64,000 nucleotides of DNA from Desulfatitalea sp. BRH_c12 (lineage in GTDB: Bacteria; Desulfobacterota; Desulfobacteria; Desulfobacterales; Desulfosarcinaceae): contig LADR01000047.1 in the NCBI GenBank assembly GCA_000961655.1, positions 124,001-188,000 of the forward strand, written 5' to 3'. A model generated the notes under the pieces. It saw only the letters and a list, made by a program, of their open reading frames with translations, was not told the DNA's origin and searched no databases. Shown one piece after another: positions 12,837-43,072 of the stretch (its first letter is position 1; the number at the start of each line of letters is the position of its first letter). Both the position numbers and the translations under genes were made by a program.

Positions 12837-13415
12837 TTACCGCGCGACACGCTCCCATATGTGCTGGGATGGCGGCACCGCAATGCGTTGCGGGTCGATT
12901 TGAATCACATGCGCTTCGGGCAAGTAGCGGTTGATGACCAGTGAAATTTGAGTGGTCAACGCATCTATCTTGAGGTTGTTCAGGGCGGTGATCATGCGCA
13001 GGTCGTCTTCCGCCAGTTGGCGCAGATAGCCAAGCCGATCCCGACCGTCTTGATAAAACGTCAACTTATCGTTTAATTCGTCCATGTAAGGCATTAGCGT
13101 GCGTAAAAGCTCGATGTTGTAGTGAAGACGAGTGTTTTGTCGGGCTTGCTCCCAATTGGTGATGCGCTTACTTCTGACCAGAACGCTGATTTCGGAGACC
13201 AGCATCTTTTCTTGTTCGGCAAGCGCGGCGCTTAACTCCTTGGCCTGCAGCATGCGGTCCTTGAGCTGTTGATGGAGAAGATTCAAGTCGGCAATTTTGC
13301 GCTCCAATTCCGCGATCTTCGGGTTGGCCAGCGCCGCCGGCGGTACGCTAATGCTCCATAGCAGCGTAACCAGAAGGAGTAGAAAAAATCCGGATTTTCC
13401 GGTTCGGGTGTTCAT
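12837..13415 (-). CDS. secreted coiled-coil protein, function unknown
   Basis: I do not recognise this 192-residue protein. A signal peptide (about 1-31, ending PPAALA) is followed by a long coiled coil (about 34-75, rich in KIAELERKIADL-type heptads) and a helical remainder, so it should act in the periplasm. The ATG at 13415 is taken because it lies four bases after the stop of the upstream gene, with GGAGG at its end; the longer frame would overlap that gene by 160 bases. The tight spacing makes it the second gene of an operon with the IMAEI-repeat membrane protein, and the two products probably meet in the periplasm. Confidence 0.75.
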   Translation of the reverse strand: MNTRTGKSGFFLLLLVTLLWSISVPPAALANPKIAELERKIADLNLLHQQLKDRMLQAKELSAALAEQEKMLVSEISVLVRSKRITNWEQARQNTRLHYNIELLRTLMPYMDELNDKLTFYQDGRDRLGYLRQLAEDDLRMITALNNLKIDALTTQISLVINRYLPEAHVIQIDPQRIAVPPSQHIWERVAR

Positions 13416-13419
13416 TGGA

Positions 13420-15648
13420 TTACTGCGCCTCCAGTTTTTTGCGGAGTTTTTCCGACAGAAACAAACGCGTGCCATAATTGCCCCACGATCCGATGGCATC
13501 GAGCCCGACCATTTCCAACTGGGAACCGCGCCATTGTGAAAGATTCGCTGTGGCTTCAGGGGATAGCACACTGAGCCCATTGAGTGACAGGCGCTTGCCA
13601 GGCCATTCGGATAAGTGCGCGGCGGCCTCCGCGGACAATTCCCGCAAGCCGTTGAGGCTCAGCCATTCGCCAGGCCACTGGGCCAGAATCCTGGCACCTT
13701 CAGGTGCCAGATCGGTTAATGCGTTAAGATTCATGTCTTTGCCATCCCAAGTGACCAGGCAACGCGCAGTGTCATCCGACAAGGCGGTCAGCAGGTATTT
13801 GCGGGCGTGATTGCCTTGGCAGATTTCGGCGCTGATCGCCTTATTCAGTGGCGCACGTTGGGCCAGCAGGCCGACTTTGCGCTGAAAGACCTTGGCGACT
13901 CCCTCCCAGACGACTGCCAAAGGCGCCGGCTGCAGCGTGTCGCTATCAATGGAAACCTGCGTATCGAATTGCAGACATCCGGCCACTGTGCCCGCCACCT
14001 CTTTCTTTAAAGTTTCGAGAGGCAAACCGCCTATGCCCGACGACAGAATTTCATAAATCGACACCCGACGTTCCAAGTACAGCAGCTCTTCGTTCATGTC
14101 GGCCAACTGCGCCAAGGGTGTTTCCAATTTAGCAATATACGTCTGACGCCGTTGAATCGCTTTTAAAGCGAGCGCGATCTTGTTATCGGCCAGGGCTTCG
14201 TCCAATGAAGGAATCCGGCCGTTGTTCAAGGTGGCTTCAATCTTTTCGGTTTCTTCTTCGATGCCCCGGGCATAGTAGCTTTTCAGCTGGCGGATATCTG
14301 ACATTCTGCCTTGCAGCTGACTGCGTGCGGCGGATAAGTTTTGTTTCATTTCGGGAAAAAGGGTTGCGGGGGTATCCACCGCCCGGGGTGAAGAATTGGG
14401 AGACGGCCGGGAAAATTCACCAGAAGAGGGCCGGGCAGGCTCCGCGGATATCTCCGGCGCAGTGACCTGCGGGGCGGCCGGCAGGGCAGCATTTACCATT
14501 GCGGACGGGGCAGCCATCTTGCCCTTGCCGGAATGTGGACTGGACTGATAGAACCAAAACGTACCGGCCGCCACCAGCAAGATGCCCGCAATGCTCCACA
14601 AAACCGCGGCTATCGGCAGCGAGAGCCGCCGGGCACCGCCCGTTGCTTGAAGGGCGCCTGGTCCCTGTTTGGAGTGCGTTTCAGGATGGCGTAATTGATC
14701 GGGGCCAACTTCGTGTAAAAGCGCGTACTTTGCCGTTGTTTCAACAACCGCTGGCCCATTCTCCGCAGGTAATTCTGCAGATGCTTTTTCCATCACCAGT
14801 CGTTTTTTCGCCAGACCGGAAGGCGCCGCCTCATTGTGCTGACGAGCAGAGGAGAGCAGTTGCGTCAGTTCGTCATCGAACTCCTCCATGGTCAGATTCG
14901 GGTTTGCCTTCTCCGAATCATCTTGCTCCAGATCGTCCTCAATGAACGCCTCGGCTTTCGATTCGGCCTCTTCTATGGATTCAGCGCAGTCATCGGACGG
15001 GGAAGTGATCGGCGCGGAAGCACCCTCGCGCTTTGTTTGCTGCGCTTCGATTTCCGCCATGATTTTTGCCAGATCGGCTTCCTCAGAGTTTTCCGCCGCG
15101 CTTCCATCCGCTTGCGGACGGATTTGGGAAGGAGCGGGCGGTTCTCTGTCCTTATTTCGTTTATGACCGATTTCCGCCATGATCTGGTCCAGGGCGGCTT
15201 GCTGATCTTCGGACAAATCTTTTTCTGTGTCTTGAACGGGAGGCTCTTCTTCGTCTTGAACAGGTGTTTTTGAAACGCTGTCGGTTTTTGCACCTTTCCG
15301 CTTGGCTTCGATTTCCGCCATGATCGCATCCAAAGCACTCTGCTGATCGTCGGAAAGAGCCTCCTCATCCTCTGTCTTTGGCTCTTCTTCAGATTGTTTG
15401 GTGTCAGGGGCGACCGGAGCCTCTGTTTTGATCTGATCGATAGCGGCCGTTTGCTGTGGGCTTTCCGGTTTCTCCGGTTGGGGCGGCGCGATGTTCGCAG
15501 GCTCCTTGGAACCGCCGGCCGAGGCGGAAATTTCGGCCATGATCTTCTCAAAAGCCGCCTTTTCATCATCGCTCAGATTCTCAAGTTCCTCGTCACCGGT
15601 ATCGGGGGTATTTTTTGCAGAATCCTTATTTTGATCTGTTTTTTTCAT
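13420..15648 (-). CDS. single-pass membrane protein with cytoplasmic IMAEI repeats and periplasmic LRR-like repeats
   Basis: A 742-residue protein of unrecognised family. Residues 1-340 are acidic and apparently disordered, apart from four copies of a 13-16 residue amphipathic motif ending in IMAEI at about 25-40, 98-113, 145-160 and 188-200; the consensus is LS[DE]DQQxALDxIMAEI. A more diverged copy may lie at 251-270. A transmembrane helix follows at about 343-367, then a Pro/Ala-rich linker, a helical region (about 425-535) and, near the C-terminus (about 635-720), three or four repeats of 24 residues of the form LxxLSxEAAxxLxxWPGxxLSLNG, which look like leucine-rich repeats. The N-terminus is placed in the cytoplasm by inference. 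Function unknown; the repeats suggest multivalent binding of one partner on each side of the membrane. Confidence 0.85.
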   Translation of the reverse strand: MKKTDQNKDSAKNTPDTGDEELENLSDDEKAAFEKIMAEISASAGGSKEPANIAPPQPEKPESPQQTAAIDQIKTEAPVAPDTKQSEEEPKTEDEEALSDDQQSALDAIMAEIEAKRKGAKTDSVSKTPVQDEEEPPVQDTEKDLSEDQQAALDQIMAEIGHKRNKDREPPAPSQIRPQADGSAAENSEEADLAKIMAEIEAQQTKREGASAPITSPSDDCAESIEEAESKAEAFIEDDLEQDDSEKANPNLTMEEFDDELTQLLSSARQHNEAAPSGLAKKRLVMEKASAELPAENGPAVVETTAKYALLHEVGPDQLRHPETHSKQGPGALQATGGARRLSLPIAAVLWSIAGILLVAAGTFWFYQSSPHSGKGKMAAPSAMVNAALPAAPQVTAPEISAEPARPSSGEFSRPSPNSSPRAVDTPATLFPEMKQNLSAARSQLQGRMSDIRQLKSYYARGIEEETEKIEATLNNGRIPSLDEALADNKIALALKAIQRRQTYIAKLETPLAQLADMNEELLYLERRVSIYEILSSGIGGLPLETLKKEVAGTVAGCLQFDTQVSIDSDTLQPAPLAVVWEGVAKVFQRKVGLLAQRAPLNKAISAEICQGNHARKYLLTALSDDTARCLVTWDGKDMNLNALTDLAPEGARILAQWPGEWLSLNGLRELSAEAAAHLSEWPGKRLSLNGLSVLSPEATANLSQWRGSQLEMVGLDAIGSWGNYGTRLFLSEKLRKKLEAQ

Positions 15649-15873: not shown

Positions 15874-18030
15874 ATGGCAACCCATTCGAATGCAGAGCCC
15901 GGTTCAGAGCTGCGGCAGTTGCGCAAACAGGTCATTCTGGAGCAGCAAGCACGGTTGGATGCCGAAGAGCGCATCCGGGCGATGCTGGCTGACCACAATA
16001 AGTTGGAGATCGATCTGATCCGTTACCGCGATCATTTCGAGTCGCAGGTTGCCCTCCGGGTTGCCCAATTAATGGCAAACAACGGCAAGCTGGTTCAGGA
16101 AAACGGTGCAAGACGATTGAGCCAACGTGAACCGCGATCTTTCCAGGATCGCTTCAGCGAAGCGTCGCTCATGCTTGAAACCATGCTCAATGCCATTCCG
16201 GATATCATCGGCGTGCAGGATACCAGCCGACGGATCATCCGCTTTAACAGAGCCGGTTATAAATTTTTCGGCCTCGATGAGGACCAAGCGGTCGGCAAAC
16301 GTTGTTTTGAGCTGATCAATCAATGTGCCCCCTGCGACAACTGTGTCGCGCGCCAAATCCTTTGCACCAGCAAACCCGCCCAAGCTGAGAAATATATCGA
16401 CTCCAAAGGGGTCTGGATGGACATCCGCGCCTATCCCATCCTTGACATAGAAGGCCGGGTCATTCGCATTGTCGAACACTGGCGCGACATCACCGACATC
16501 AAGGCGAACGAGGCCTCCCTCGTCGAGTCTGAAGAAAAATACCGATTGCTCGTCGAAAATGCCAATGAAGGCATTTTTATTTTTCAAAACGGTGACTTCC
16601 GATTCTCCAACCACAAAGCCCGCGAAATGGCGCACAAACTCGGTCTGGCGGTGCTGCGCAAGCCTCTGATCGATTACGTGTTCCAAGACGACCGCAGGGA
16701 CGATCCCGATGCCATCATGCGCAGGCTCAACGGCGGTGACCCCAAACCATCGGCTGTCGCATTCCGCTTGATCGATCCGGAAAACGAGTTGATCTGGATT
16801 GAAATGAACACCATCAACATCCGCTGGAAAGGCGCGCCGGCCACCTTGAATTTTGTCAAGGACATCACCCAGAGCAAAGCCCTTGAGCGCCGATTCCAGG
16901 AATCGCAACGATTGGAATCCCTTGGAACCCTGGCAGGGGGGATCGCTCATGACTTTAACAACCTGCTGATGGGCATTCAGGGAAATGTATCCCTTATGTA
17001 TCTGGATGCAGAGCACGATCCGGCGATCACGGAAAAATTGAAAAACATCGAAGATTGTGTGGACAGCGGCGCCCGGTTGACCAAACAGCTGCTCGGATTT
17101 GCACGGGGCGGCAAGTACGTGGTCAAAGCCATGGATATGAATCAAATTATGCAAAGCTCTGCCGAAATGTTCGGGCGTACCCGCAAGACCATCAAGATTC
17201 ACGAGGAATATCAAAAAGAGTTGTGGACCGTCATGGCCGACGGCAGTCAGATCGAGCAGGTCCTGGTCAATCTGTTTCTCAATGCATGGCAGGCCATGCA
17301 CGGATCGGGCGATTTATTCCTGAGGACCGCCAACGTGGTCCTGAACGATGCTTTTGTCGGGTCATTCGATATCCCTCCGGGGCGTTACGTTCAGGTCAGT
17401 GTGAAAGATACCGGCATCGGCATGGACGAGACTACGCAGCGGCGCATCTTCGAACCTTTTTTCACGACCCAGGAACCGGGCCGCGGCACCGGACTAGGGC
17501 TCGCTTCGGTGTTCGGTATCATCAAGAATCATAACGGCACCATCACGGTCAAAAGCCGGCCAGGCCAAGGCAGCCACTTTGACATATACCTGCCGGCCTC
17601 GGACAAAAATCCCGAAGTGGATGCGCCCCCCAAGGGATCCATCGAACTGGGGTCGGAAACCATTTTGTTGGTCGACGATGAAGAGTACATCATCGATGTC
17701 GCCCGTCTGATGCTTGAAGGGCTGGGGTACACGTTGCTGATCGCCAACAGCGGTGCGTCGGCCATAAATTGCTACGCCGAGAAAAATGAGGCCATTGACC
17801 TGGTGATTCTGGATATGGTGATGCCGGATATGGATGGCGAGGAAGTATACGGCAAGCTTCGCGATATCCGTCCCGATATCAAGGTGATTTTCGCCAGCGG
17901 CTACTATGATATTGAACAGGCCAAAGCGTTGCTCGCCAAAGGCCGCAGCGGATTTTTGCAAAAGCCTTTCAATATGCAGCAGCTTTCCACCAAAATTCGT
18001 GGCTTATTGGACAAACCTAGAACAATTTGA
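15874..18030 (+). CDS. hybrid sensor histidine kinase (PAS-PAS-HisKA-HATPase-REC)
   Basis: A 718-residue cytoplasmic two-component kinase with no transmembrane helix. A coiled coil (about 15-75) leads to two PAS domains (about 95-215 and 225-345). The first PAS holds a cysteine cluster CAPCDNC that could bind a metal or sense redox. The HisKA box is [13 protein letters not shown] with phospho-acceptor H359, then N, G1 and G2 boxes of the ATPase, and a C-terminal receiver with phosphorylatable D647. The REC domain suggests a phosphorelay or self-regulation. ATG 15874 is chosen because a good promoter ends at 15839; ATG 15838 is the alternative. The 3' end overlaps the convergent methyltransferase by 14 bases. 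Confidence 0.88.
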
Positions 18031-40842: not shown

Positions 40843-40919
40843 TGGCGCGCCCGGCCTGATTCGAACAGGCGACCTACGGATTCGTAGTCCGGTGCTCTAT
40901 CCAGCTGAGCTACGGGCGC
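40843..40919 (-). tRNA. tRNA-Arg (anticodon ACG)
   Basis: A complete 77-base cloverleaf including an encoded CCA. The acceptor stem is GCGCCCG/CGGGCGC with discriminator G, the D-arm GCTCAGCTGGATAGAGC, the anticodon loop CTACGAA and the T-loop TTCGAAT. The outermost anticodon-stem pair is a C/T mismatch. A promoter and terminator flank it. Confidence 0.95.
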
Positions 40920-42995: not shown

Positions 42996-43072
42996 CGGGA
43001 CATGGCTCAGTCTGGTAGAGCACAGCGTTCGGGACGCTGGGGTCGCAGGTTCAAATCCTGCTGTCCCGACCA
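42996..43072 (+). tRNA. tRNA-Pro (anticodon CGG)
   Basis: A 77-base cloverleaf with encoded CCA. The acceptor stem is CGGGACA/TGTCCCG, the anticodon stem-loop CAGCG-TTCGGGA-CGCTG and the T-loop TTCAAAT. Confidence 0.96.

Follow-up and report, generated by a model that had tools for sequence, protein, structure and literature searches.

A two-gene unit encoding a predicted membrane protein with a repeated tail motif is associated with one FliM lineage in the Desulfobacterales

Introduction

HubP and FimV are single-pass proteins with a large acidic cytosolic repeat region, coiled coils beside the membrane and a periplasmic anchor domain, and they have a connection with polar flagella and with chemotaxis arrays (PMC8789113, PMC12918733). 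The characterised partners of HubP bind mainly its acidic cytosolic modules (PMC8789113).

We analysed a window of 64,000 nucleotides from Desulfatitalea sp. BRH_c12 (order Desulfobacterales; contig LADR01000047.1, positions 124,001 to 188,000), which carries a gene for a protein of similar plan (gene 1), followed by a smaller gene (gene 2). The tail of the gene 1 protein (341 residues; D+E 23%, K+R 11%) is an acidic repeat region predicted to lie on the cytoplasmic side, as in HubP/FimV. The order of the parts is, however, reversed, with the tail at the N-terminus and leucine-rich repeats (LRRs) outside, and there is no sequence match between them. Neither LysM (Pfam) nor a TPR/FimV domain (Pfam, NCBIfam) was matched in gene 1 at E ≤ 1; its predicted fold is a bundle plus LRRs. 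Since the defining domains of HubP/FimV are absent, gene 1 is HubP-like in design only.

Other described systems can be compared with the unit in single features. The FliM N-terminus, the CheZ tail and CheX have roles comparable to the docking or titration of CheY-like receivers. Like the motif repeated in the gene 1 tail, the CheY-binding peptide of FliM is short and acidic with an LSxDE-like start, a likeness that is clearer in two distant homologues (L069 and L065). The likeness to CheX is weak and limited to the N-terminus of two homologues in family f53. With LRR proteins, gene 1 shares tandem helix-strand units 24 residues apart in its AF2 model, differing in that its LRR is short and caps a bundle anchored in the membrane. 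MotE of Cereibacter (domain COG3334) is secreted, has 185 residues, is mostly helical and coiled-coil prone, and acts together with another periplasmic protein (PMC10954123). Gene 2 might act in a similar way to MotE or MotK; it has no Pfam or NCBIfam match above cut-off.

Results

Predicted layout of the two proteins

The features of the locus are listed in Table 1. The predicted transmembrane helix of gene 1 starts 141 residues past the last motif copy and is flanked by two K/R among the 12 residues before it and none among those after it. K/R were in excess on the N-terminal side in 35 of the 38 loci with a usable helix (the truncated L075 was excluded), and the other three were ties. From these flanking charges, an N-in/C-out orientation is predicted.

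The AF2 model of residues 361-742 had a mean pLDDT of 88, with 10-residue blocks at 83-98 from residue 421 on. It consists of long helices followed by short helix and strand units in alternation. In this 382-residue construct, the LRR strands recur every 24 residues (positions 278, 302, 326 and 350), and the repeats are also visible in the alignment of 37 gene 1 sequences. Cysteines at construct positions 250 and 270 were at least 90% conserved, and both are substituted in L069. No Pfam LRR family matched gene 1 at E ≤ 1. Structure searches with the models of the gene 1 ectodomain and of gene 2 gave no match at E ≤ 0.001; partial Foldseek matches of the ectodomain, all at E > 0.1, included LRR ectodomains. 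Composition, transmembrane prediction and the AF2 model thus uphold the initial annotation of an acidic tail, a membrane helix and then coiled coil with 24-residue LRRs. Its remark that no named system has such a layout holds within the Pfam and NCBIfam scans, in which genes 1 and 2 had zero matches above cut-off, and within the open-access literature searched, which yielded no paper on this family.

Genes 1 and 2, the latter absent from the initial annotation, form a two-gene unit. The listed ORF of gene 2, 12837-13580 (-), overlaps gene 1; the ATG at 13415, four bases past the gene 1 stop, is a likelier start. By our own reading, the N-terminus is signal-peptide-like and the protein looks secreted. 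Its model has long helices (mean pLDDT 90), and a profile of the gene 1 ectodomain found gene 2 in its own genome (G000:C83:136840-137334, E 4.2e-16). In 49 of 55 loci, the next gene unit member, a gene 2 homologue, came after gene 1 in the same orientation; it was missing in L065, L072, L075 (where the contig is cut), L165, L175 and L176.

Table 1. Features of the unit and its divergent neighbour (positions in the window; aa, residues of the gene 1 protein)
Feature	Positions	Strand	Remarks
Gene 1, membrane protein, 742 aa, predicted single-pass	13420..15648	(-)	Acidic tail, transmembrane helix, helical bundle, LRR
Motif copy 1, LSDDEKAAFEKIMAEI, aa 25-40	15529..15576	(-)	
Motif copy 2, LSDDQQSALDAIMAEI, aa 98-113	15310..15357	(-)	
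Motif copy 3, LSEDQQAALDQIMAEI, aa 145-160	15169..15216	(-)	
Motif copy 4, half motif, AENSEEADLAKIMAEI (...ADLAKIMAEI), aa 185-200	15049..15096	(-)	E 0.037 with motif profile
Second recurring tail segment, NLTMEEFDDELTQLLSSA, aa 251-268	14845..14898	(-)	Homologues of the same genus have similar segments; not in the initial annotation
Predicted transmembrane helix, aa 342-360	14569..14625	(-)	
Predicted extracytoplasmic helical bundle / coiled coil, aa 427-610	13819..14370	(-)	Alignment and AF2 model
24-residue leucine-rich repeats, about aa 625-730	13459..13776	(-)	Alignment and AF2 model
Gene 2, 192 aa, homologue of gene 1 helical bundle	12837..13415	(-)	ATG 13415, start inferred
PAS-PAS-HisKA-HATPase-REC hybrid kinase, divergent neighbour	15874..18030	(+)	Listed ORF begins at 15394; start placed by homologues

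The IMAEI motif and its conservation

IMAEI occurs four times in the gene 1 tail, at the spacings of 73, 47 and 40 residues first noted. The description of four near-identical copies applies to those at residues 98 and 145, which match the full 16-residue motif, but the copy at 25 is a variant and the one at 185 has only the C-terminal half. 'Amphipathic' is loosely true, with a hydrophobic moment of 0.20-0.25 in three copies compared with 0.48 in the tail segment at residue 251. In 20,000 shuffles of the 341-residue tail, one IMAEI appeared in 3 and two in none.

The motif is under purifying selection. Copy 1 was present in all 10 loci of the two nearest genera, with EKAAFEKIMAEI identical in all, while the 40 residues after it had no recognisable resemblance among those loci. 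Over its 16 codons in the 10 nearest homologues, pS was 0.835, pN 0.061 and pN/pS 0.07; the copy was located in these loci via its EKIMAEI, which is less circular than the pattern counts. Selection follows from a copy that is kept at this ratio while its neighbourhood has diverged.

The homologues carried one to six copies each, and 28 of 30 gene 1 loci, including the window's, had at least one. A pattern scan of 39 loci found 99 copies in 30 of them; none of the nine loci without a copy belonged to f1, the family of the window, or to f46. The 99 copies comprised 92 distinct DNA forms and 72 peptides. Ile was used over Val 99:0 at position 12 and Met over Leu 97:2 at position 13, counts that are valid only within the letters allowed, as the copy-finding pattern itself constrains most positions.

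Across 97 genomes, every match of the motif profile at E < 1e-3 fell in the gene 1 family, and a genome-wide linear motif was ruled out on this ground. Such matches were found in all 27 f1 genomes with the protein and in G074 (f46); the f1 genomes with no motif match (G008, G009 and G013) also lacked the gene 1 protein. Weaker matches outside the family had E 0.004-0.083 in the 97 genomes, and three in the own genome had E 0.19-5.4. The DNA pattern IM[AS][EQ]I had ten matches in the own genome, four of them within gene 1, and a control pattern had none. Five of the remaining six lay in frames longer than 60 aa, none of them a tail of this kind, and L006 had no such frame. The initial suggestion that repeated motifs recruit several copies of one partner fits the selection, the range of one to six copies and the confinement to one family; no partner was found.

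Homologues and exchange of the tail

The gene 1 protein was matched in 37 of the 97 genomes, including its own. Order-wide, 48 of 291 genomes matched the gene 1 profile, 45 of them strongly. A phylum-level search matched 3 of 395 genomes, each within the host's order. The other three of the 48 matches in the order were set aside: G123 (E 1.5e-4; in our own reading transposase-like), G135 (E 2.9e-12; another LRR protein) and G223 (E 1.8e-5), a contig-end fragment that may be real.

Eleven families keep the protein without IMAEI (f8, f9, f15, f17, f25, f29, f30, f36, f49, f53 and f60). The motif pattern had 0 copies in 9 + 16 loci of such families, three of the 16 being open-ended. Homologues that keep the protein without the motif had been named in the initial annotation as grounds against its reading, and in part they do speak against it: they were found in 9 of 39 and in 16 of 16 loci, all outside f1 and f46. 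In these eleven families, the shared function can therefore not depend on the motif.

Judged by eye, the tails of f9 and f49 contain repeats of the type LSEQEKMDxLMAEL. That of f15 (L069) contains FliM-like repeats of SLNQADLDALFGGG, and that of f17 (L065) pairs of the NLGQDEISKLIDEI type and also NLNQDDVSQLIDKV, again FliM-like. The tails of f8, f29 and f30 are acidic with no repeat evident by eye, and in f60 (L072) the tail is nearly absent. In f53, the tail starts with a CheX-like domain (L064:3770-4252 (-), E 4.8e-4; L170:3947-4411 (-), E 0.011); both matches are under the family's cut-off and occur in this one family only. The window protein had no match to the CheX domain PF13690 in Pfam.

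Comparison with the FliM N-terminal peptide

The motif had been said to resemble the CheY-binding peptide of FliM faintly. We built a matrix from 28 distinct FliM N-termini and applied it to 30 tails. The best score in the window's tail was 8.1, at the segment around residue 251, away from IMAEI, and 3 of 500 shuffles scored as high. The five FliM sequences shown scored 37.8-42.0, shuffled tails -0.5 +/- 3.1, and the top score over the 30 tails was 10.3. The resemblance of IMAEI is therefore weak, and its identification as a FliM peptide was rejected on the matrix score. By the same matrix, the window's tail lacks the CheY-binding core LSQ-E/D-E-I/V-D-A/S-LL, and gene 1 had no Pfam match to the FliM domain PF02154. 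Scores as high as that of the tail itself were reached by 3 of 500 shuffles for L065, 7 for L071 and 12 for L069.

Co-occurrence with a FliM lineage

The FliM proteins of the order fall into two score classes, T1 with an N-terminus like ILTQDEVDSLLSGL and T2 with one like ILSQEEIDALLSAM; the boundary was set at 180 bits, and we treated G026, which is in two pieces, as T2. In a FliM tree of 38 sequences from 40 prepared loci, a single branch with support 100 separated them. The own FliM lies elsewhere in the genome (C83:203554-204123).

The unit is associated with T2. Among the 97 genomes, it was present in 34 of 39 with T2, 0 of 22 with T1 and 3 of 36 lacking FliM (Fisher p 2e-17). Beyond f1, it was present in 9 of 13 T2 genomes and 1 of 54 others (p 1.6e-7); neither p value has phylogeny removed. 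In the 291-genome set, where T2 was assigned by score alone and a few T2-range scores came from families otherwise T1 (f22 and f24), FliM was found in 42 of the 45 strong homologue carriers, always in the T2 score range. The strong carriers without a FliM match were G012, G021 and G088. Conversely, 5 of the 39 T2 genomes lacked the unit, and f45 and f69 had T2-range FliM with no strong gene 1 homologue among the 291 genomes. Of the eight f8 genomes, five had the unit, a further one had the G223 fragment, seven had FliM, and one incomplete genome had neither; f8 was not informative on the link.

We corrected for relatedness on a quick RpoB tree of the 88 of 97 genomes with a usable rpoB (nine dropped; 33 of 85 branches starred). 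On this tree, the unit changed 10 times and T2 12 times, and T1, T2 and FliM-less genomes were interspersed, as might be expected if flagellar clusters were lost or replaced repeatedly within one order. For eight independent pairs differing in the unit, T2 agreed in direction in a mean of 5.4, was opposed in 0 and was equal in 2.6 (median p 0.06); for ten pairs differing in T2, the values were 5.9, 0 and 4.1 (median p 0.03). The number of concordant pairs ranged from 3 to 7, and opposing pairs never occurred. After tree correction, the association is thus borderline (p 0.03-0.06). Distances of gene 1 and FliM, given RpoB, had a partial r of 0.31 over 20 genomes (59 of 2000 permutations as high), and of 0.39 with one genome per genus (141 of 2000). 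A link to the flagellum that the initial annotation had not foreseen does arise, through this distribution and not through the FliM-like peptide.

FlhF/FlhG-like genes were found near FliM in 22 of 25 T2 and 13 of 15 T1 stretches, so they do not explain the link to T2. The own T2 cluster (L114:5705-8426, C83) has one MotA and then two MotB-like genes with OmpA and MotB_plug matches. MotB-like matches were also seen in several T1 clusters.

Genomic neighbourhood

None of nine proteins encoded in the genome's T2 flagellar cluster was matched at E 1e-4 in the 55 unit loci (at most 20 kb each), and the unit is therefore encoded away from the flagellar cluster. We scanned 107 of the 163 neighbour proteins from 22 loci outside f1 with Pfam; no flagellar family was among the first 25 of the 128 families found. 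Gene 2 was the only neighbour common to loci throughout, other common neighbours being confined to parts of the set.

The hybrid kinase recurs close to the unit in several f1 genera, in f46 and in f53. It was rejected as a partner: among G074, G081 and G128, only in G074 was it the genome's best match. In f8 and f30, the unit has AIR-carboxylase-like genes nearby (L164:5916-6671, L165:7518-8264, L172:11656-12402); 7 of the 107 scanned neighbours matched AIRC and 7 HDOD. The window also contains tRNA-Arg (acg) at 40843-40919 (-) and tRNA-Pro (cgg) at 42996-43072 (+).

Discussion

We tentatively favour, at somewhat under even chances, a two-gene inner-membrane scaffold serving T2 flagella, HubP-like in design and unrelated to HubP. 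The gene 1 protein would be inserted in the inner membrane N-in/C-out, as its predicted topology suggests. Its cytoplasmic tail could serve as a multivalent docking strip, with one to six helix-like motifs holding several copies of one partner; FlhF/FlhG and the receiver proteins of the chemosensory pathway are candidates. Outside the membrane, its bundle may pair with the homologous bundle of secreted gene 2, and the LRR may bind a fixed periplasmic or cell-wall site as an anchor. This would gather the partner at a single site, most likely at the flagellated pole or at the motor. Such a scaffold may help build, place or steer the T2 flagellum.

An envelope scaffold of general function, unconnected to motility, would leave the T2 link to shared ancestry, transfer or habitat. 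The loci of the unit are free of flagellar genes, T2 genomes without the unit and three unit carriers without FliM exist, and the signal is borderline once corrected for the tree. These points agree with such a scaffold, which we nevertheless consider somewhat unlikely in view of the absence of the unit from all 22 T1 genomes and of any opposing independent pair. The closest rival is a sensor with receiver docking, in which sensing by the periplasmic LRR or bundle would be combined with docking or titration of CheY-like receivers at the tail. It is backed by the distant homologues and not by IMAEI: FliM-like repeats stand at the same place in L069 and L065, few of 500 shuffles matched the scores of L065, L071, L069 and the window's residue 251 segment, a CheX-like domain heads the f53 tails, and a REC-bearing hybrid kinase is divergent from gene 1 in the window and in several relatives. 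The scores of IMAEI, however, fall far short of FliM, the CheX matches are under cut-off in a single family, and the kinase is the best match of its genome in G074, whereas in G081 and G128 it is not. T2 FliM itself also has the canonical N-terminal peptide, in 27 of 28 T2 loci by a finding pattern that demands it. We regard this sensor as unlikely.

The repeats could also be a functionless by-product of tandem duplication in a weakly constrained linker, as copy number varies from one to six, some homologues (L024, L021 and L036) have long near-identical repeats, and eleven families lack the repeats. This reading is already disfavoured, and highly improbable, given the low pN/pS of copy 1 over 10 genomes in surroundings that are not kept and the many DNA forms among the copies. 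A bolder form of the scaffold, which we would call a long shot, is a new transmembrane organiser of one flagellum lineage whose tail is an exchangeable docking module: IMAEI, LSEQEKM, FliM-like LNQADLDALF repeats or a CheX-like domain would occupy one and the same position in different families, all addressing one class of partner, CheY-like receivers or the switch to which these bind.

To our knowledge, flagellar placement in bacteria outside the HubP/FimV group is poorly known. If the scaffold serving T2 flagella is real, it would be a flagellar organiser outside the HubP/FimV type. Such an organiser would accompany a single flagellar lineage throughout an order, its multivalent tail would have a countable number of sites, and its companion would be secreted. 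The natural series of tails, with one to six copies, alternative motifs, a CheX-like replacement or no motif, would then reveal the effects of valency in a bacterial scaffold.
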